A stretch of DNA of 64,000 nucleotides, taken from IMG/VR virus record IMGVR_UViG_3300043464_001630, positions 172,392-236,391 of that record. The stretch is one strand, 5' to 3'. The stretch is from a virus. Below are positions 39,403-64,000 of this stretch, one piece after another. The stretch's first letter is position 1. The number at the start of each line of letters is the position of its first letter. The notes below the pieces were generated by a model. It was not told the DNA's origin. It did no database searches and saw nothing but the letters and a program-made list of their open reading frames with translations. Both the position numbers and the translations under genes were made by a program.

Positions 39403-40506
39403 ATGACACTTCACGAAATCGGTTTACCAGATCCTGAACAATTTCATATCAAAGAAATCGGAGATAAGATATTGATTCATAGAAAAGAAGCAGGAGTTAA
39501 ATGGAATGATAAAAACAAATATTTCAGAAGCTCTGTATGGGAAAAAGAGTCTGGTAAATTAATTTCGGCAGGATTTCGAGCATTTGTTAATTATGGGGAG
39601 CAGCCAGACTTCGAGCCATTAGAAGCGAACAATAGGATAACAGCGGTCACTAAAACGGACGGAAGTTTGTTATGCGTTTCGAGCTACAAAGGTGAATTGA
39701 TTGTTCGAACTAGAGGAACTGTAGATGCTACTAAATTATCTAATGGACACGAGATAGAGTTCTTAAAAAACAAGTATCCACGGGTTTTTAATAATCACTA
39801 TATAAACAACGGACGATATACTCTATTGTTTGAGTGGACAACTCCTACTAATAGAATTGTTTTAGCTGAAACAACAGAACCTTGTTTATGGTTAATTGGA
39901 ATGGTCCTACATGATTCAAAAGATGAATTTTATAAATACGTACAGCAAGAACATCTAAATACGGTCGCATGGTTTTTAGAAGTTGAACGACCGAAAACAT
40001 ATAGTATCACTGTTTCGGATAATATCGAAAAACTAAAAAAAGATATCGAACCTTTGGTTGATATCGAAGGAGTTGTTGTGTATGATGAGTCTGGTCAGAT
40101 TTTAAAGAAGATCAAGACCTTACGCTATTTAGAGTTGCATAAAGTATTCACTGGTGTAAAAACTGTGGATCACTTGTTTGATATTTTTGTTGAGTATGGT
40201 TGTACTTATAGAGAAAACTTCGAAGCATTACTAGCTACTAATTTTGATTGGGAATTAGTGACTACATTGAAACCTTTGATTGACGAATTGTATCAGAAGT
40301 GGCAAGTCATAACAGATAAACAATTTTCTATTGGAATGTTTATTGGTAATGTCGATATCTCAGGATTGAGCAGAAAAGAAAAAGCACAACAAATTCTGAA
40401 TCATTTCCCAGATTGTTCCGGTATTGCATTTGCGATGATGGATGGAAAAAAATTAACTCCGCATAAACTTTGGAAAACATTTCATGAAAAATCCGCCACC
40501 AGTTAA
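39403..40506 (+). CDS. rnlA: T4 RNA ligase 1-like enzyme
   Basis: This 367-aa ATP-dependent RNA ligase is of the Rnl1 family. Motif I is KTDGS (Lys84, AMP acceptor), motif III is TLLFEW (Glu144), motif IV is IEGVVVY (Glu222), and motif V is in KKIKTLRY (Lys236/238). The C-terminal helical domain is present, so the length matches T4 RnlA. In T4 this enzyme reseals tRNAs cut by the anticodon nuclease PrrC. A kinase-phosphatase (Pnkp) is not in this window, but a calcineurin-like phosphoesterase follows two genes later. Confidence 0.85.
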   Translation: MTLHEIGLPDPEQFHIKEIGDKILIHRKEAGVKWNDKNKYFRSSVWEKESGKLISAGFRAFVNYGEQPDFEPLEANNRITAVTKTDGSLLCVSSYKGELIVRTRGTVDATKLSNGHEIEFLKNKYPRVFNNHYINNGRYTLLFEWTTPTNRIVLAETTEPCLWLIGMVLHDSKDEFYKYVQQEHLNTVAWFLEVERPKTYSITVSDNIEKLKKDIEPLVDIEGVVVYDESGQILKKIKTLRYLELHKVFTGVKTVDHLFDIFVEYGCTYRENFEALLATNFDWELVTTLKPLIDELYQKWQVITDKQFSIGMFIGNVDISGLSRKEKAQQILNHFPDCSGIAFAMMDGKKLTPHKLWKTFHEKSATS

Positions 40507-54944: not shown

Positions 54945-55145
54945 ATGGGACATTCAAATTATCAGTTATCCGAAGAACAGAAAAAACAACTGAATATGAT
55001 TGCTGAAGAAATGATTCATGTAATTGAATCTAAACTGAGTGATGATATCGGTGGTGTTCTAGATCCATACGATGGACGTAAAATGGATAATAATAAACTC
55101 ACTGCCATGATATGGTACATTGGTGATCATATAGCAACTTATTGA
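54945..55145 (+). CDS. Unknown 66-aa protein
   Basis: ATG 54945, 1 nt after the previous stop. Helix YQLSEEQKKQLNMIAEEMIH, end IWYIGDHIATY. Not recognised. Confidence 0.48.
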   Translation: MGHSNYQLSEEQKKQLNMIAEEMIHVIESKLSDDIGGVLDPYDGRKMDNNKLTAMIWYIGDHIATY

Positions 55146-55148
55146 TAT

Positions 55149-55156
55149 AATAAATA
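55149..55156 (+). promoter_or_regulatory. Late-promoter motif AATAAATA
   Basis: Exactly 5 nt before ATG 55162. It singles this gene out from the surrounding block, whose genes lack the motif. Confidence 0.65.
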
Positions 55157-55161
55157 GATAT

Positions 55162-55563
55162 ATGAAATTTAAAGATTTGGTAAATCACATCTTGAAAGAA
55201 AATATACACGGTGACAACTGGGCATCTACTAGTTGGACACATGTTGTTGACGGGAGAGAAGTTACAGTCAGTATCAATGACATGTTAAATCTCATAAAAG
55301 ATAAACCTGTGCAAGAAATCAAAACAAAGATTTTAGAACCTTACGCTCTACATAAAACAAAAACAGACGAGCAAACATTAGCAAATATTCAAAAATCTAA
55401 TTTAGATTATCCAATTATTGTTTTACACCATCCAAATAAATATCAAATTTTAGATGGTCATCATAGATTACAAAAAGCAATTAATAATAAATTACCTACT
55501 ATTAAAGCAAGAGTAATTGAATTGTCCGATATGCCCGAAGAATGGCAAAGGGTTTTCGCTTAA
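55162..55563 (+). CDS. ParB-like domain protein with capsid-targeting-like N-terminus
   Basis: This 133-aa protein starts MKFKDLVNHILKENIHGDNW, fitting a T4-like packaging peptide ending LKE. Residues about 80-125 form a ParB N-terminal-like core: YPIIVLHHPNKYQILDGHHR (DGHHR at 98-102). ParB-like folds bind or cut nucleotides or DNA. With a late promoter and this N-terminus it may be packaged and delivered to the cell. No HTH is present, so partitioning is unlikely. Confidence 0.65.
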   Translation: MKFKDLVNHILKENIHGDNWASTSWTHVVDGREVTVSINDMLNLIKDKPVQEIKTKILEPYALHKTKTDEQTLANIQKSNLDYPIIVLHHPNKYQILDGHHRLQKAINNKLPTIKARVIELSDMPEEWQRVFA

Positions 55564-55565
55564 TT

Positions 55566-55835
55566 ATGGAAATTGAAATCGTTAAACCAACACCAGAAGC
55601 AGCAGAGCTTCAAGCTTTGTTCGATCAAACAGATAAAGAAACTATTAGCTTACTTATGGAAGAAGTAGAAGAACTTTATTCTAAACTAGAAGCATGGGAA
55701 AAGTGTGCTGATCGTTTGTTTGTATATGCGATGGAGACACTATCTACTGCAACTAATATGGCTTTGTACGAAGCAGCTAAAGAAGATATTTTAGTTTATA
55801 ATATATTAAAAAATGAAGCAAAATCTAATGAATAA
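55566..55835 (+). CDS. Unknown 89-aa helical protein
   Basis: ATG 55566, 2 nt after the previous stop. Acidic helices (EEVEELYSKLEAWEKCADRL). Not recognised. Confidence 0.5.
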   Translation: MEIEIVKPTPEAAELQALFDQTDKETISLLMEEVEELYSKLEAWEKCADRLFVYAMETLSTATNMALYEAAKEDILVYNILKNEAKSNE

Positions 55836-56016
55836 TATTCCACAAGGAGCATACGTTCTGCCAGATGAAAAGACCGCATACATTGCAGTATGGCAGGATG
55901 ATACAAGTTTGTATATTAAGCTTTTGAAAGCTGGTGTAGAGGGAGTTTGGCTAAAATTAGATAAACAGATTCTGCCACATCTAGTAGATGCTCTAATTGA
56001 TTTACAGAATTCTTGA
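55828..56016 (+). CDS. Unknown 62-aa protein
   Basis: ATG 55828 overlaps the previous end by 8 bp; ATG 55813 is possible. Beta-rich (GAYVLPDEKTAYIAVWQDDT). Not recognised. Confidence 0.48.
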   Translation: MNNIPQGAYVLPDEKTAYIAVWQDDTSLYIKLLKAGVEGVWLKLDKQILPHLVDALIDLQNS

Positions 56017-56017
56017 T

Positions 56018-56254
56018 ATGTACGTCTATGCAATTCATAGTGAAGAAGTTTGGACAACAAACTATAATGTAGCAATCTGCTCATCAAAGAAATTAGCAGA
56101 AAATTGCATTAAAGAGATGAATGCAGAATATAGTAAATGGTGTGAGGAGAGAAACAAAACTCCACACAATAGTACAGAATATCTCGACTTCTCATATCAT
56201 AACCCACAACCACGCAAATACAGAATCGAGAAAATAAAAGTTTTCAAAAAATGA
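56018..56254 (+). CDS. Unknown 78-aa protein
   Basis: ATG 56018, 1 nt after the previous stop. YVYAIHSEEVWTTNYNVAIC, then helix and basic tail. Not recognised. Confidence 0.48.
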   Translation: MYVYAIHSEEVWTTNYNVAICSSKKLAENCIKEMNAEYSKWCEERNKTPHNSTEYLDFSYHNPQPRKYRIEKIKVFKK

Positions 56255-56526
56255 AAGAAGAATATCCAAAAGACTACAAAGGACCAAAATCTGGCGAATC
56301 TACCCACGAGGAGTATCTACAAGTCAGAGATTATGATGCTTACAAATACGTAAGAGATGGCATTTGGAGTTATGCAGATTTCGACAATTATCTCTACTCT
56401 ATGTGCGAAGAGCACTACAAAAAAGGTGAAAAACGAGCACTCGAAGCTTTAAAAGAATTTCAAAAAAGGTATAATATTAAAGCTGAAGTTAAGTCTTGGT
56501 TTGATAAAAATCAAATAGATGGATAA
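56251..56526 (+). CDS. Unknown 91-aa protein
   Basis: Overlaps the previous stop (ATGA). Tyr-rich (HEEYLQVRDYDAYKYVRDGI). Overlaps the TOPRIM gene by 8 bp. Not recognised. Confidence 0.48.
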   Translation: MKEEYPKDYKGPKSGESTHEEYLQVRDYDAYKYVRDGIWSYADFDNYLYSMCEEHYKKGEKRALEALKEFQKRYNIKAEVKSWFDKNQIDG

Positions 56527-57082
56527 TGTTGTTAATGTAAATAACAAATACGAATTAAAGCAACATCTTAAAGATAGGCATATGGACATTGATCTTCATA
56601 AGCCTATTATTTCTGATCATATTGCAACCTTTTTATTGTATAATCTATCAGGCCAAATAGTAGGATATCAGAGATACAATCCTGCTTTTCCTTCTGCATA
56701 TCCGGGTGATGGAAAACAATCTAATTTAAGAGACAGAAGATACTATAATTATGTAAGTTCTGATAAAATTGGATTATTTGGATTAGAATCATTCCATCAA
56801 AATGTACCTTGTGTTTTTGTTGTTGAAGGAGTATTTGATGCTTGTAGGTTGACAAGCCGTGGTGTATGTGCTATTGCTATGCTTACAAACACGCCATCTT
56901 CTTCTATGAAGAATTTTTTGATTTGTTTGAGTAAGCCGTTAATTACTATCTGTGACAATGATCCTTCAGGAAAGAAGTTAAAATCAGTAGGACATTATCA
57001 CGAAATAGTTAGATACGGAAAAGATCTGGGAGATTGTTCAGAGGAATTTGTTGATTACATTTTAAAGAAATATGGAAGCTAA
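56519..57082 (+). CDS. TOPRIM-domain protein (primase-like fragment)
   Basis: This 187-aa protein has a TOPRIM fold: PCVFVVEGVFDACRL (Glu103 and Asp107) and LITICDNDPSGKKL (Asp146-x-Asp148). The first 85 residues resemble the pre-TOPRIM part of small DnaG-like phage proteins (GQIVGYQRYNPAFP, then IGLFGLES). No zinc finger or helicase domain, so it is a stand-alone TOPRIM protein, perhaps a nuclease or primase accessory. Confidence 0.75.
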   Translation: MDNVVNVNNKYELKQHLKDRHMDIDLHKPIISDHIATFLLYNLSGQIVGYQRYNPAFPSAYPGDGKQSNLRDRRYYNYVSSDKIGLFGLESFHQNVPCVFVVEGVFDACRLTSRGVCAIAMLTNTPSSSMKNFLICLSKPLITICDNDPSGKKLKSVGHYHEIVRYGKDLGDCSEEFVDYILKKYGS

Positions 57083-57485
57083 ATTAACAGCTATTATCAC
57101 ATTCCCAACAGACGTTGATACAGATCCAGAGTATATTAAGCTTTGGAAATATTTCGGTAGCGTAGAGCATATTGAGCAAGCATTCCAAATCGAATTTTCT
57201 TGCGGTGACGGAAAGTTCATGAGCAATATGTACAAATGGACAGAAAACGAAGAAGCATTGATCTGTCAAGTAACCGACGAAGAATTGGAGAAATATGATG
57301 GAAATGTTTGTTTAAAAACGCCTCCAAAAATTCGAGCAACAAACAAACTTTTTAGGGTTGACAAGTCCTACAAATTTGTGGTAAAGTGCTCTGATAAAAA
57401 TGAGGAAGAGACGTTCTACTTGAACAGTAAAATGATATCGAAAAGGCATTATAGCAATCCTTGGAGTTTTTATAAAAACACTTAA
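57072..57485 (+). CDS. Unknown 137-aa protein
   Basis: Overlaps the TOPRIM gene by 11 bp. N-terminal beta strand EAKLTAIITFPTDVDTDPEY, then mixed. Not recognised. Confidence 0.48.
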   Translation: MEAKLTAIITFPTDVDTDPEYIKLWKYFGSVEHIEQAFQIEFSCGDGKFMSNMYKWTENEEALICQVTDEELEKYDGNVCLKTPPKIRATNKLFRVDKSYKFVVKCSDKNEEETFYLNSKMISKRHYSNPWSFYKNT

Positions 57486-57486
57486 T

Positions 57487-57585
57487 ATGAGCATTAAAGA
57501 TTGGATCGCTTTCTTTTTTGTTATTGCTTTATCTCCTCCAGTAGGAATACTTCTTTCGATAATAATTGCTAAACTACTTAGATAA
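57487..57585 (+). CDS. Tiny membrane protein, 32 aa
   Basis: ATG 57487, 1 nt after the previous stop. Almost entirely hydrophobic (WIAFFFVIALSPPVGILLSI). The tight spacing on both sides supports translation. Confidence 0.5.
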   Translation: MSIKDWIAFFFVIALSPPVGILLSIIIAKLLR

Positions 57586-57586
57586 T

Positions 57587-58123
57587 ATGAAAGATTTCTT
57601 TAGTCATCTTCAACATAATCATAAAAATGCCATAAAATCCATCAAAGACATGATTGATGTCGATGGCGAAGATAAGCAAAAGTATCCAGAGTATAAAGAG
57701 GCTGCGACTCTTTGTAATTTTATTTTTACTTATCCTCATAGATATTCATTAATTCATTTTGCTGAAAAATATGGAGCATTTTATGATTGTGCTCAGGATT
57801 TAGAGAAACTTTTTAATCTAATTTATCACGCGATTGTGGATGACGGCGACATTTCATTTGTTCAAGTTAATCGTCATTGTCCCGCGATTGTATTCGAGCA
57901 CAGGAGTGAACTCTCATTAGATAATCTTTTAAAAGACAGTGAAAAAGATACAATTAAAATATTGAACGAATTCAAGGCTATCAAAAATTTACCACCGACT
58001 GAACATAAACTTGATTTTTTCAAAAATGTGAGGGAATATATTGATGCCGTGAAGGCATATGACATTGAAGTTGAAGAAAATCACAAAAAGTGGCTGGAAA
58101 TTAAAAATAGAATTGTAAAATAA
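57587..58123 (+). CDS. Unknown 178-aa protein
   Basis: ATG 57587, in TAATATG context. Helical with His/Asp-rich start (FFSHLQHNHKNAIKSIKDMI). Not recognised. Confidence 0.5.
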   Translation: MKDFFSHLQHNHKNAIKSIKDMIDVDGEDKQKYPEYKEAATLCNFIFTYPHRYSLIHFAEKYGAFYDCAQDLEKLFNLIYHAIVDDGDISFVQVNRHCPAIVFEHRSELSLDNLLKDSEKDTIKILNEFKAIKNLPPTEHKLDFFKNVREYIDAVKAYDIEVEENHKKWLEIKNRIVK

Positions 58124-58124
58124 T

Positions 58125-58409
58125 ATGGAAGAAGAATACGAAGCAATCGACAAGATCATCAATAGAGTAATGGCTAGATACGGTAATATTGGTCACGTAA
58201 ATATGCTAGAACTTCTTCGGGAGGTCACCATAGCAGCTCTAGAAGAGGGACATAAAGCTGGGTGCGACAACGGTTATGAAGAAGGCTTACAAAATATTTC
58301 TCCGGAACAATACGAACTTATCATGGAAAAGGTTCAGGTAAAGATTGACGAAGCCTTTTTAGCAGGCTACGAAGCAGGTCTTGATGCTGCTTATATTACC
58401 AATCAATAA
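58125..58409 (+). CDS. Unknown 94-aa helical protein
   Basis: Two similar halves with GHKAGCDNGYEEGL and AGYEAGLDAAY, i.e. a degenerate G-x2-A-G-x3-G-x2-x-G-L repeat. Last gene of the small-gene block. Not recognised. Confidence 0.5.
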   Translation: MEEEYEAIDKIINRVMARYGNIGHVNMLELLREVTIAALEEGHKAGCDNGYEEGLQNISPEQYELIMEKVQVKIDEAFLAGYEAGLDAAYITNQ

Positions 58410-58463
58410 TTATTTCACTTTATCAGAAATAAAAGCAAAAGAAAAGAATCAAATTAAACTAGA

Positions 58464-59069
58464 ATGCTTTTTGATAAAATTGTGAATAACTTTCTACAAA
58501 CATCTTATTTTGTGGAAAGTCCTATGTATTATGATGGCGTTTTTAATGATCAATTACAAAAACTCGATCATAACAAAAACATAGCCGATGGCGTCATCAA
58601 AAAATACGAAAAGTTCGATAATTTTAAATCTTGGAATGTATATAAAATTCCTGATGGTTTTGACGAGAATAAATTCACTTACTGTTTAATTAAACAAAAT
58701 AACGTTGATTGTTTTATAGAAATATCCAAAAAATCTTCCTATAATTTTTCTACTGGAGTCTGGCAAAGAAAAGACACAACCAAAGGACTAGCAAGAGATT
58801 TCTTTTTGAATTTTTTACCTAAGTATTACGATTCTATAATTTCTGATAAAACAGCTAACAAACTAGGAATAAGCTTTTACAAAAAACTACTAGACGATGC
58901 ACTATCTTTGGGATACACTGTTACAGTCCTCAACGGATCTCATAAAAACGAAGAACCTTACGATCCTAATAAATTCGATAGTTATTGGATCACTGTAGAT
59001 AGAGATGTACCGACACATCCAACATTTATAACTTCTAAAGATATTCTTTTTAAAATTTATTTCAAATGA
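58464..59069 (+). CDS. Unknown 201-aa protein, acetyltransferase-like outline
   Basis: Starts MLFDKIVNNFLQTSYFVESP. Middle strand CLIKQNNVDCFIEISKKSSY, then GVWQRKDTTKGLARDFFLNF and a final SYWITVDRD. The order strand, basic loop, helix is reminiscent of GNAT enzymes and is seen in other T4-like virion-associated proteins. This is weak, and I would not assign an activity. Confidence 0.5.
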   Translation: MLFDKIVNNFLQTSYFVESPMYYDGVFNDQLQKLDHNKNIADGVIKKYEKFDNFKSWNVYKIPDGFDENKFTYCLIKQNNVDCFIEISKKSSYNFSTGVWQRKDTTKGLARDFFLNFLPKYYDSIISDKTANKLGISFYKKLLDDALSLGYTVTVLNGSHKNEEPYDPNKFDSYWITVDRDVPTHPTFITSKDILFKIYFK

Positions 59070-59106
59070 AAAAATATTTAGACTTTGAGGAGAAACCGGA
59101 AAAGGG

Positions 59107-59664
59107 TTATTTGCCCCTCGTTTTGAGATAAAGTATCCCAAAAAATATTCCAACAGGATTAGCAATGAGGGGAATAACTGCAATAGTTGCAATTACAATT
59201 CCAATGGCTTTGAGAATATTTCCAGCAGTTGCTGCGGGTTTTTTAACAATGTCCATGAATTTTTGTACGGCGCTTTTAACTTGTTCTGTAGATTCGGAGT
59301 TTTTTTCAGGCATTGCTACTTTAGATCTTCGTTTACTTAAAATTTCCATCTCTTCTGGGGAAAATCCTTCTGATCCTCCTCGCATTAAGTCTTTCGCGTC
59401 CCATCGTTGTGGTTCGTAATAATTACCAGAAGACTCAGATACTTGCTCGTTCGTAATCATATCCTGTAACTCTTTTGCTGAACGAGCTTGCCTCAATTGA
59501 TCGTATACTTCTGGAGCAAATCGTTTAATGGTTTGAGCAACAGTACTCATTGCCCAATCAACGAGTTTATTCTTTAATGCATTAGCAATACCTTCATTTA
59601 ATAATTCATCATGACGGACTTGGGTATATAGTTCAGCTAGTAATTCGGAATCATTTTTACGCAT
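59107..59664 (-). CDS. Putative head-packaged protein with C-terminal membrane helices
   Basis: This 185-aa protein starts with helix DSELLAELYTQVRHDELLNE followed by GIANAL, like a targeting peptide plus cleavage site. A helical middle contains KRFAPEVYDQLRQARSAKEL. The last 50 residues are hydrophobic (NILKAIGIVIATIAVIPLIA, VGIFFGILYL). Such layout suits a virion protein that enters the host membrane at infection. Confidence 0.55.
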   Translation of the reverse strand: MRKNDSELLAELYTQVRHDELLNEGIANALKNKLVDWAMSTVAQTIKRFAPEVYDQLRQARSAKELQDMITNEQVSESSGNYYEPQRWDAKDLMRGGSEGFSPEEMEILSKRRSKVAMPEKNSESTEQVKSAVQKFMDIVKKPAATAGNILKAIGIVIATIAVIPLIANPVGIFFGILYLKTRGK

Positions 59665-59669
59665 AATTT

Positions 59670-59677
59670 TATTTATC
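59670..59677 (-). promoter_or_regulatory. Late-promoter motif GATAAATA
   Basis: Exactly 5 nt before ATG 59664. Confidence 0.7.
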
Positions 59678-59695
59678 TTTTACTAAAAGATTTTC

Positions 59696-59703
59696 TATTT
59701 ATC
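59696..59703 (-). promoter_or_regulatory. Second GATAAATA upstream of the same gene
   Basis: A copy 26 bp further upstream. Transcripts from it would have a short leader, so the gene may have tandem late starts, or this copy is chance. Confidence 0.35.
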
Positions 59704-59739
59704 TTTTCAAATAAAAGTTACGAAAGATCTAAAGAAGAG

Positions 59740-59768
59740 TTGACTTGTCTTCATCGTATCTGTAATAT
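59740..59768 (+). promoter_or_regulatory. Sigma70-like promoter TTGACT-17-TAATAT
   Basis: -35 TTGACT 59740-59745, 17-bp spacer, -10 TAATAT 59763-59768. The predicted start is the A of ATG 59775. Confidence 0.55.
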
Positions 59769-59774
59769 GTACAC

Positions 59775-59825
59775 ATGGAAGAGAACGGAGATAGAATTCC
59801 TATTAAAGAGCAGAATCTTTCCTGA
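59775..59825 (+). CDS. Possible leaderless 16-aa ORF
   Basis: ATG 59775 to TGA 59825, encoding MEENGDRIPIKEQNLS, placed exactly at the predicted start point of the promoter before it. Very short, so it may only be a translated leader of the downstream gene. Confidence 0.3.
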   Translation: MEENGDRIPIKEQNLS

Positions 59826-59855
59826 AAGTAAAAGAAAAAAAAAGATTAAAATTAA

Positions 59856-59863
59856 AATAAATA
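59856..59863 (+). promoter_or_regulatory. Late-promoter motif AATAAATA
   Basis: 9 nt before ATG 59873. Confidence 0.5.
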
Positions 59864-59872
59864 ATCACCAAT

Positions 59873-60316
59873 ATGAGTAATGATATTAAAATAATAAGTG
59901 AGATATATTCTCGCATATACTTAGAGAATAATTCATCCGAAGCACTTGAAAAGTTTGCCTCTGATCTCCATGAAGTATGGCGTAATGGATGGATTAAACA
60001 AAACGGTGGCAAAAGTCTACCGAGAATGAAGAAAGGTTCTAAAGGACAAGAAGTAGATATAAATGTACCATTTTCTAAATTAGATGCAGCATGGCGAAAA
60101 GAAAATGAAGAAGCAGCTAAAGCTGCTTTACAAGCTGTTAATCAATTTCCAAATGACGAAGAAGCAGCAGCAGATTTCATCCATAGAGAATGGATGAAAC
60201 GTAATCCGAAGGGAGATTGGAATGCAGCACAACACGTACCATACAAATCTCTTCCAGAAGAAGAAAAAGAAAAGGACAGAGTTCATGTCCGATCTATGAA
60301 ATCTTTATTAAGTTAA
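59873..60316 (+). CDS. RyR-domain-like protein, possibly head-packaged
   Basis: This 147-aa protein begins with a helix ending IYSRIYLENN. Then come two helical repeats typical of bacterial/phage RyR domains: EKFASDLHEVWRNGW with VPFSKLDAAWRKEN, and DFIHREWMKRN with VPYKSLPEEEKEKDR. RyR domains are linked to nucleotide-derived ligand recognition. With a late promoter and a targeting-like start, packaging is possible. Confidence 0.6.
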   Translation: MSNDIKIISEIYSRIYLENNSSEALEKFASDLHEVWRNGWIKQNGGKSLPRMKKGSKGQEVDINVPFSKLDAAWRKENEEAAKAALQAVNQFPNDEEAAADFIHREWMKRNPKGDWNAAQHVPYKSLPEEEKEKDRVHVRSMKSLLS

Positions 60317-60342
60317 AATTTGATTTTTTTTATTCACTTTAA

Positions 60343-60639
60343 ATGAAAAAAGTTAAAATCACAAAACTAAGTGCAGCAGAAAATCCCAAGTATCCTACAC
60401 CTGATTTCGATGGTTATGAACTAGGAAAAGAAAACGGTAATGTTTCGCTTCCTGCTGAATATATTGTAGAAGGAAACATGGAAAAAGATCCCGTAGTAGG
60501 ATCTAGTGTTTTTGTGGAAAGAACTTCTAGAAATGGTGTAAAATCCTATGGATGTTTTTATACATCTCCTGTGACTGAAATTACTGAAAATGGATTTAAA
60601 ACACAAAATTCAATATATAAGCTAGAAGTTCTTGATTAA
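60343..60639 (+). CDS. Conserved phage hypothetical, beta-barrel-like
   Basis: 98 aa. VSLPAEYIVEGNMEKDPVVG, SSVFVERTSRNGVKSYGCFY and TSPVTEI are a recurrent pattern in T4-like phage proteins and suggest an SH3/OB-like barrel. Function unknown. Confidence 0.6.
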   Translation: MKKVKITKLSAAENPKYPTPDFDGYELGKENGNVSLPAEYIVEGNMEKDPVVGSSVFVERTSRNGVKSYGCFYTSPVTEITENGFKTQNSIYKLEVLD

Positions 60640-60666
60640 ACAAAAAATTTAAATTATACTAAAAAT

Positions 60667-60894
60667 ATGGAAACAATTCTAGTAATCAGCAATCAAGTAG
60701 TACGGGATAATGCAAAAGTTAATTTTCCTGATTTGAATTATCCAAATTCAGGAGACACTGTACTCAGGTATCTACACAAGATCGACTACGAAAATCTACG
60801 CCTTCAGCTAGATGGAGAAGATGGAATCTGGTTTGAACATCCTAATCTTCCAAAAGGTGTAGGATTCTTTACAACAATTAAGAAAAAGAAATGA
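60667..60894 (+). CDS. Unknown 75-aa protein
   Basis: LVISNQVVRDNAKVNFPDLN start, Lys-rich end. Overlaps the next gene by 4 bp. Not recognised. Confidence 0.5.
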   Translation: METILVISNQVVRDNAKVNFPDLNYPNSGDTVLRYLHKIDYENLRLQLDGEDGIWFEHPNLPKGVGFFTTIKKKK

Positions 60895-61100
60895 ATGAAT
60901 CTAAATTAGATCAGTTATTATTAGATATTTTATCCGATATAGATTTAGATATTTCTTGTTTGGAACTAGAAAGAATTGAACTTAAACTGAACTCTTTTAA
61001 AAATCTTATCCAAAAAGCATATATGACGGGACAGTGTCATGCTTTTGACGAAGTTTATGCTCTAATAGAGAAAGCTATAGAAAATAAAAAAGATAACTAA
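60891..61100 (+). CDS. Unknown 69-aa helical protein
   Basis: SKLDQLLLDILSDIDLDISC, leucine-rich helices, charged end. Not recognised. Confidence 0.48.
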   Translation: MNESKLDQLLLDILSDIDLDISCLELERIELKLNSFKNLIQKAYMTGQCHAFDEVYALIEKAIENKKDN

Positions 61101-61109
61101 TCTCCATAC

Positions 61110-61757
61110 ATGGAAACTTTATATTATCAATCATTATTAAAAGAATGTTCTTTAGTAGAACCGAAGAACACTAATAATGATTGGAAATATATCTTTTCTG
61201 TATATGAAAAATGCTATCAACTACAAATCTTAGAAAAGTTCGAATTCTCTTCGGAAACTAAAAAAGATAAAGTTACTGAACATAATTACAAGATAGAAAC
61301 AAAATCTGGAAAAGTCTTCAGTGTTTTGATATCTTATTATAATTCAGATAATAGCTACGAAATAGCTAACTCAAGCGAAACACTAGCTAAACAAAAGAGA
61401 AATAATACATTAGCAAACGAATTTGAAATTCTTAAAAACAAATTAAAGAAAGACGATTCTAAAATTTGTATAATTAATTTCATTGACTCAGATGCTAGAA
61501 ACACTTTAACAAATGAAGTTAATTACGAATCATTTGAAGTATTCTCTTCTTTAAAAGATTCGTTAATGGATAGCTTACTGAACAAAAACATGATAGAAGA
61601 TCTATCAGCCATTTCATTCAGAATATCTAAAAATGAAGGAAAAAGAAGAGAATTGTATATTAAAATGTTTAATAGATATCTAGGAAAACTATTTCCAGTT
61701 TTCTTCGAGGATAATTTAACAAACGAAGATTACGAAATTCTTTATTTCTGTAAGTAA
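61110..61757 (+). CDS. Unknown 215-aa protein
   Basis: Starts METLYYQSLLKECSLVEPKN. The middle has a restriction-fold-like alternation (NYKIETKSGKVFSVLISYYN) without a clear catalytic set. Overlaps the next gene by 1 bp. Not recognised. Confidence 0.5.
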   Translation: METLYYQSLLKECSLVEPKNTNNDWKYIFSVYEKCYQLQILEKFEFSSETKKDKVTEHNYKIETKSGKVFSVLISYYNSDNSYEIANSSETLAKQKRNNTLANEFEILKNKLKKDDSKICIINFIDSDARNTLTNEVNYESFEVFSSLKDSLMDSLLNKNMIEDLSAISFRISKNEGKRRELYIKMFNRYLGKLFPVFFEDNLTNEDYEILYFCK

Positions 61758-61996
61758 TGAGTAACTACGACGTAAAATTCGTACATGACAAAGATCCAAT
61801 ATTCAATATGTGGCTGGTATCTGATGATCCCGATCCACATGATGATGAAGTCGATATGAATTACGATAATTATCTAATTTACAAGAATTTCGGAGTGAAG
61901 AGAATAATTACTCCTTTAGGCACGCAAAATTTTCGCTACTACGAAATAGTAGACGAAAAGCAGTACTTTCTAAGTAAAATAAAATACGGCTTTTAA
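61757..61996 (+). CDS. Unknown 79-aa protein
   Basis: Asp-rich (WLVSDDPDPHDDEVDMNYDN), then basic. Not recognised. Confidence 0.48.
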   Translation: MSNYDVKFVHDKDPIFNMWLVSDDPDPHDDEVDMNYDNYLIYKNFGVKRIITPLGTQNFRYYEIVDEKQYFLSKIKYGF

Positions 61997-62004
61997 ACAA
62001 ACCT

Positions 62005-62082
62005 TTACTTCTTCGGAGGTACGGGTTTTTCTTTTTTTGGTTTCTTCTTTTCTTTGCGATGAGAATTGTTACCTTTTGCCAT
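62005..62082 (-). CDS. 25-aa lysine/proline-rich protein with its own late promoter
   Basis: ATG 62080-62082 on the minus strand, TAA at 62005-62007. The product is MAKGNNSHRKEKKKPKKEKP plus VPPKK: 25 residues, about half Lys. It has a perfect GATAAATA at the standard 5-nt spacing, which argues that this tiny ORF is real. A DNA- or RNA-condensing or packaged peptide is conceivable. Function unknown. Confidence 0.6.
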   Translation of the reverse strand: MAKGNNSHRKEKKKPKKEKPVPPKK

Positions 62083-62087
62083 ACTAT

Positions 62088-62095
62088 TATTTATC
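62088..62095 (-). promoter_or_regulatory. Late-promoter motif GATAAATA
   Basis: Exactly 5 nt before ATG 62082; divergent from the + strand motif at 62102. Confidence 0.7.
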
Positions 62096-62101
62096 TTTTT
62101 C

Positions 62102-62109
62102 GTTAAATA
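62102..62109 (+). promoter_or_regulatory. Late-promoter motif GTTAAATA
   Basis: Exactly 5 nt before ATG 62115, which fixes the start of the gene (the frame extends further upstream). Confidence 0.68.
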
Positions 62110-62114
62110 ATTTC

Positions 62115-62888
62115 ATGAATTTTGATAAGCTAGTTAAGCGTTTAACCGAAGCACCAGTAGGTGATATTGGTTTACACGGTGATTGGGAAAATGAAAAACT
62201 ACACCGTTATGATCGTCCTTCTATGCGAGCATTGAAAAAAGAAGGATATCTAGAAAAAGTAAAATCAAAGTTCGCAAAAGATATCGCAGTAAATTTTAAC
62301 TTATTTTTCGTTAAATCTGCACAAGCTGGCAAACATAGAGAAGTAGGAATTGTTTCTCCTGATAGATTACGTTCTATGATTTCAGATGTAAATTTAGATC
62401 CTATATTAAATTCTTCTAATGAGAATAATATTACGATTGTGTTCACAAATAACGTAGGCGATCAGAAAGTTCCGTTAACTCCTTGGATTATTGCACACAG
62501 AACTAGTCATGCTCTTTATCGTGGATCAATGAACGATAAAGAAATAAAAAGAGAATATACTTTTTTTATGCAAGAATACAAAAATACGTTAAAACATTGT
62601 TACGGTATTTTAATAAATGACTACGGAAGTGGTGTGGATAAAGATAATAGTCAGAAATTAAAGAGATTCTTTAGTACTGTAGGTACATTCAAATCGGCTA
62701 GAGATAAAAAAGTTATACGTCCATTTGAGTTTATCCATGAATGTTTCGCGCAATATCTAATGGAAGGTGGAATTACGTTTAACGAAGGAGAAGAAAGAAG
62801 AATGTGTTCATACGAATTACAAACTAACTTCGAAGCTTTATTCAGTCATGTGTTGTATAAATCTGAGGGCAAAATTTTTGTGATGTAG
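62115..62888 (+). CDS. Virion-associated protein with targeting-like N-terminus
   Basis: This 257-aa protein starts MNFDKLVKRLTEAPVGDIGL, the clearest T4-like capsid-targeting peptide here (cleavage expected after LTE). The core has VPLTPWIIAHRTSHALYRGS, a block I associate with large-phage proteins of unknown role, and later FEFIHECFAQYLMEGGI. His and Glu residues (HRTSH, HE) could bind metal but no standard HExxH is present. It is probably a packaged protein. Confidence 0.6.
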   Translation: MNFDKLVKRLTEAPVGDIGLHGDWENEKLHRYDRPSMRALKKEGYLEKVKSKFAKDIAVNFNLFFVKSAQAGKHREVGIVSPDRLRSMISDVNLDPILNSSNENNITIVFTNNVGDQKVPLTPWIIAHRTSHALYRGSMNDKEIKREYTFFMQEYKNTLKHCYGILINDYGSGVDKDNSQKLKRFFSTVGTFKSARDKKVIRPFEFIHECFAQYLMEGGITFNEGEERRMCSYELQTNFEALFSHVLYKSEGKIFVM

Positions 62889-62891
62889 GCA

Positions 62892-62919
62892 TTGACACTC
62901 ATCATTTTTCTGTTAATAT
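62892..62919 (+). promoter_or_regulatory. Sigma70-like promoter of the structured RNA
   Basis: TTGACA (62892-62897), 16-bp spacer, TAATAT (62914-62919). The start at about 62926 coincides with the first helix of the predicted RNA. Confidence 0.6.
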
Positions 62920-62925
62920 AGGCCA

Positions 62926-63063
62926 CATCAGAGAGATTTAGGTTAGTTTAAAGTTTTATCTCTGATATTGCATGGCGTAAACACTAACCTTAGACGTTAA
63001 TGGATCGGACTACTTCCGGTCGTATCGTTGAACGAAGTGACAATATCCGGAATAAAACACTTC
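62926..63063 (+). ncRNA. Candidate non-coding RNA with a pseudoknot
   Basis: Part of the 362-bp gene-free stretch 62889-63250. Helix A: ATCAGAGA (62927-62934) with TCTCTGAT (62959-62966). Helix B: AGGTTAGT (62940-62947) with ACTAACCT (62983-62990). B starts in the loop of A and closes beyond it, which is an H-type pseudoknot of two perfect 8-bp helices. Further stems: GATCGGA/TCCGGTC (63003-63021, one G-U) and GAAGTG/CACTTC (63034-63063). There is no reading frame. It sits upstream of a TROVE-like gene. I cannot match it to a known riboswitch or ribozyme. Confidence 0.55.
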
Positions 63064-63250: not shown

Positions 63251-63982
63251 ATGAACTCACTAATCAACGCAATCCAAAACAAACAGAACGTAACGACCAC
63301 TGAAAATGGTGCAGCTACACTAATTTCTTCTTTAAAATGTACTGTGGATTTCTTTGGCTTGGGAGGAGCACTACGTACTCGTACTGATGCTGATGTTATT
63401 TCTTTGTTCAGTAAAGCTTTTGCAGAAGATCCCTTGATTGCTGTTAAAACTCTGTTTTTTATCAGAGATTGCCGCTCTGGAAGTGGTGAACGTAAAACTT
63501 TTCGTACTATCTTTAACTGGCTATCTAAAGAGTATCCAGAAGTGGCAATTAAGAATCTACAAAATGTAGTAGAGTTTGGACGTTGGGATGATCTATACTC
63601 TACACGGGGAACCGACATTTGGAAGAGTCATGTTCTTCCGATGATCCAAAACGAATGGTTCAAGGGTGGAACTCCTTCACTGGCTTGGAAATGGTTTCCA
63701 TCGAATAACACATCCAGTAAAGAAACTCGTACTATTGCTGAAGAGATTCGTTCATTCTTGGGAATTTCTCCCCGTACTTACCGCAAGACTCTTTCAGAGA
63801 AGCGTGCTATTCTAGACATTGTAGAACGCAAAATGTGTTCTAATAACTGGTCTGATATCAATTACAAAGGAGTACCATCGAAAGCTGCTCTAAATTACAA
63901 GGATGCTTTCGATAAACACGATCATGATCGTTATCAACAATATATTTCAGATGTAAAAGCAGGAAAAACTACTATTAATTAA
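63251..63982 (+). CDS. DUF2828/TROVE-like N-terminal domain, frame cut by TAA
   Basis: This 243-aa product matches the HEAT-like N-terminal domain of phage DUF2828 (TROVE-vWA-like) proteins: FFGLGGALRTRTDADVISLF, KTLFFIRDCRSGSGERKTFR, VVEFGRWDDLY and SDINYKGVPSKAALNYKDAF. Family members are usually far longer and end in a von Willebrand A-like domain. Here the frame stops at TAA 63980-63982, yet the same frame continues directly with GTLYPY, which is the expected next segment of the family. So the stop replaces a single residue. Either the gene is nonsense-mutated or split, the stop is read through, or there is a base error. The window ends 18 bp later. Confidence 0.75.
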   Translation: MNSLINAIQNKQNVTTTENGAATLISSLKCTVDFFGLGGALRTRTDADVISLFSKAFAEDPLIAVKTLFFIRDCRSGSGERKTFRTIFNWLSKEYPEVAIKNLQNVVEFGRWDDLYSTRGTDIWKSHVLPMIQNEWFKGGTPSLAWKWFPSNNTSSKETRTIAEEIRSFLGISPRTYRKTLSEKRAILDIVERKMCSNNWSDINYKGVPSKAALNYKDAFDKHDHDRYQQYISDVKAGKTTIN

Positions 63983-64000
63983 GGAACACTATACCCTTAT

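Follow-up and report, generated by a model that had tools for sequence, protein, structure and literature searches.

Ro/TROVE proteins are reported from a subset of jumbo phages, where they have been linked to RNA repair (PMC7824862). Phage proteins of this kind are represented by Ro60 from the Thermus phage phiLo, by PHROG 850 ('RNA-binding protein') and by the Pfam families DUF2828 and DUF7788; a literature search on DUF2828 returned nothing directly useful. The gene described here encodes a phage Ro60-like protein of this known kind and runs to the very end of the window (the whole 64,000-nt stretch analysed, G000:C1:172392-236391), whose base 64000 is also the end of the 236,391-nt source contig.

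In the ORF listing of the window, this gene closes after 243 codons (...KAGKTTIN) at a TAA (Table 1), and its product matches DUF2828 (4.2e-36) and family positions 1-243 of the 476 in PHROG 850 (1.7e-56). Past the TAA, the same frame continues GGA ACA CTA TAC CCT TAT (GTLYPY) up to base 64000. An earlier note on this DNA had described an in-frame TAA inside a DUF2828/TROVE-like gene with family sequence following it, which is indeed what the printed sequence holds, and had proposed that the stop replaces a single sense codon with nothing else lost, by a fresh nonsense mutation, programmed readthrough or a base error. Comparison of the two ends of the contig bears on these options.

Table 1 Features at the right-hand end of the window
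Feature	Position	Strand	Basis
5' part of the phage DUF2828/Ro60-like gene, 243 codons as printed	63251..63982	+	ORF listing, Pfam, PHROG 850
Apparent in-frame TAA; middle base 63981 is the sole overlap mismatch; other copy TCA (Ser)	63980..63982	+	Copy comparison, 37/37 relatives
Right-hand copy of the 146-base contig-end overlap; left-hand copy G000:C1:1-146, outside the window	63855..64000	+	Genome search, base comparison
Exactly identical 126-base stretch within the overlap, the length that a k-mer of 127 would give	63855..63980	+	Base comparison; 54-base parallel in G009
20-base tail of the contig past the identical part; putative error or minor-variant branch	63981..64000	+	Inferred from mismatch position and G009 tail

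Duplicated contig ends and the gene across the join

When the last 750 bases of the window were searched against their own record, a second match appeared at the very start of the contig (C1:1-146). Base-by-base comparison of this segment with the contig's final 146 bases (C1:236246-236391) gave 145 identical positions: 126 bases agree, the 127th differs (C at the contig start, A in the window), and 19 further bases agree. The stop is therefore present in just one of the assembly's two copies, while the contig-start copy reads TCA, a serine codon. A second DUF2828 gene was considered as a source of the mismatch and ruled out, as the phage's own genome holds none apart from the two contig ends.

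Beyond the overlap, the frame from the contig start is open from base 3 to base 830 (L002:3-830; 275 codons) and carries the end of DUF2828 followed by DUF7788 (5.4e-50), which is the family-like continuation past base 64000 that the earlier note had looked for. Because this frame is open, the gene that is broken at the contig ends encodes, once these are joined at the overlap, a continuous protein of 477 aa, the usual length for the family (PHROG 850), with full-length homologues. At least 80% of the joined protein is covered by a single place in 679 phage records, at identities below 60%, and it aligns to all 37 IMG/VR relatives.

Taken alone, the printed window would be compatible with a recent nonsense mutation, fixed in the phage and splitting the gene, yet the TCA in the contig's second copy renders this highly improbable. 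Since the stop lies only within the last 20 bases and its twin copy carries a serine codon, the TAA is almost certainly a contig-end assembly artefact (at most a rare variant) and the gene is intact. Of the three options raised earlier, the base error is thus the one best supported, with the mismatch against the contig-start copy as its evidence, and neither the fixed mutation nor readthrough finds support, given the TCA in that copy; the suggestion that a single sense codon had been exchanged was sound, and TCA had been one of the guesses for it. This sense codon is read from the second copy in the assembly rather than from raw reads, and it supplies in essence the observation that the earlier note had named as refuting a genuine stop. 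A search of the viral collection for the exact 35-base stretch around the site, with either base allowed, matched no further contig and so gave no independent assembly of this phage to confirm the TCA; serine is the probable reading of the gene in the majority genome.

A probable assembly origin for the differing ends

The anatomy of the two ends would be explained if the phage genome had been assembled as a circle (from circular, or from terminally redundant and permuted, DNA) and the assembler had opened this circle at a k-mer branch point within the DUF2828/Ro60-like gene. The contig would then set out from the branch k-mer along the main path (TCA), travel once round, meet the same 126 bases again and end 20 bases into a side branch with one base changed (TAA). 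The majority genome would carry serine at the site and encode one unbroken 477-aa protein with N-terminal TROVE-like RNA-binding and C-terminal vWA parts. The 126 identical bases equal 127-1 and fit a presumed assembly k of 127, a correspondence that depends on the overlap convention (k or k-1), which differs among assemblers. We infer that a de Bruijn tip caused the ends to differ, and the A at its divergent base probably arose from a sequencing error rather than from a true but rare variant; artefacts caused by oxidative damage to libraries likewise run from C to A.

The contig ends of ten further IMG/VR records with the gene were also compared. In G009 (L060 1-73 and L061 328-400), 54 identical bases, which fit a k of 55, are followed by a divergent 19-base tail, the difference being the length of a T run. 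This same end anatomy supports the de Bruijn side-branch account of the present contig, and G009 is probably a second circular contig that its inexact end conceals. In G011 the ends overlap exactly over 117 bases, and no clean end overlap was found in the remaining records of the ten. A literature search on contig-end overlaps yielded nothing directly useful.

The 146 bases could alternatively be a direct terminal repeat physically present in a linear genome, with two truly different copies, and some phages do have direct terminal repeats of such size. We consider this very unlikely, however: the repeat would fall within a gene made complete only by joining the ends, true repeats are copied from each other in replication and packaging such that a lasting difference is not expected, and the 126-base match fits a k of 127, with a like pattern in G009 at 54 bases. 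Under the preferred assembly-artefact reading, the source record probably represents a complete genome of about 236.2 kb that was assembled as a circle.

The stop site among relatives

As the earlier note had suggested, the site was examined in related phages. A sense codon stands at this position in each of the 37 IMG/VR relatives (Ala in 30, Thr in 3, Ser in 2 and Val in 2) and none has a stop. The sole stop anywhere in these alignments, counted in relative L034, was set aside, being upstream of that gene's own ATG and outside it.

This conservation bears on whether the side branch might be real. A true low-frequency nonsense variant would have population members with TAA as the origin of the assembler's branch; in a metagenome, a C-to-A branch may have a biological origin, and one surviving tip clipping may have been backed by more than one read. 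On the other hand, sequencing error would produce such a one-base change just as readily, this account shares its contig-end origin with the artefact account, and a small residue is conserved at the site in 37/37 relatives, so that a stop here would remove the whole vWA half; we therefore judge such a variant unlikely. That part of the phage population truly carries the TAA, as a natural truncation polymorphism whose product lacks the vWA half, is quite improbable.

Programmed readthrough of the TAA (or recoding), giving a short RNA-binding form and a long RNA-binding-plus-vWA form, would be in keeping with the family sequence that continues in frame after the stop, but is practically untenable. 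The other copy reads TCA and leaves no stop to be read through, and the relatives all lack a stop at the site. Furthermore, most shuffled versions of the 84 bases that begin at the site and extend downstream fold better than the real sequence (z = +1.53), and a search for a suppressor tRNA found no tRNA gene in the window. TAA is also the commonest stop in the window, terminating 28 of its 37 ORFs of at least 150 aa, in agreement with the earlier view that genome-wide recoding is unlikely.

The Ro60-like protein and its comparison with known systems

An AlphaFold2 model was built of L003, the closest relative found (59% identical), in place of the protein itself (pLDDT 86.5, pTM 0.83). The ten best Foldseek matches of this model are all Ro60/TROVE structures, and the label 'TROVE-like', which the gene had been given from its sequence, is borne out by the predicted fold of the relative. 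In a second alignment, the model matched Ro60 1yvp_A with a Z of 20.3 (419 residues, rmsd 4.2, 12% identity) and the phiLo Ro60 dimer (PDB 9l5y) with a Z of 15.2 (395 residues, rmsd 5.4). Residues 9-460 of the modelled relative align along Ro60, which suggests a TROVE HEAT-like ring followed by a vWA domain. The DxSxS motif of the vWA metal site is present as VDSSGS in the contig-start frame, and its D290, S292 and S294 are invariant in an alignment of 29 relatives. Fold comparison succeeded where searches for solved relatives by protein sequence or by profile gave nothing convincing; the Pfam TROVE model gave no match at E up to 1. No Rfam family passed the gathering threshold in a scan of the window plus the first 20 kb, where Y RNA had been sought.

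Elsewhere in the window, positions 39403-40506 match PHROG 562 ('RNA ligase and tail fiber protein attachment catalyst'; 1.6e-35). The co-occurrence of this gene and the Ro60-like protein in one phage could fit a role in RNA repair. Window positions 55000-63000 hold many small + strand ORFs (60-280 aa); three larger ones searched against Pfam had no match.

The artefact finding takes away a false stop-codon readthrough candidate in a phage RNA-binding protein. It also suggests a practical rule, namely that an unusual base lying within roughly one k-mer of either end of a contig should be checked against the opposite end before biology is invoked.

Compared with known phage Ro60/TROVE proteins (phiLo Ro60; PHROG 850; DUF2828 plus DUF7788), the joined 477-aa protein is a full-length family match, while identity to solved Ro60 is just 11-14%. 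Compared with the de Bruijn end overlaps of circular contigs, the present ends are alike in having identical bases at both ends and a gene open across the join, but differ in that the last 20 bases contain one mismatch. Because of this inexact repeat, an exact end-repeat test would miss the overlap and call the record a linear fragment, and circular records such as this one can thereby go unrecognised.
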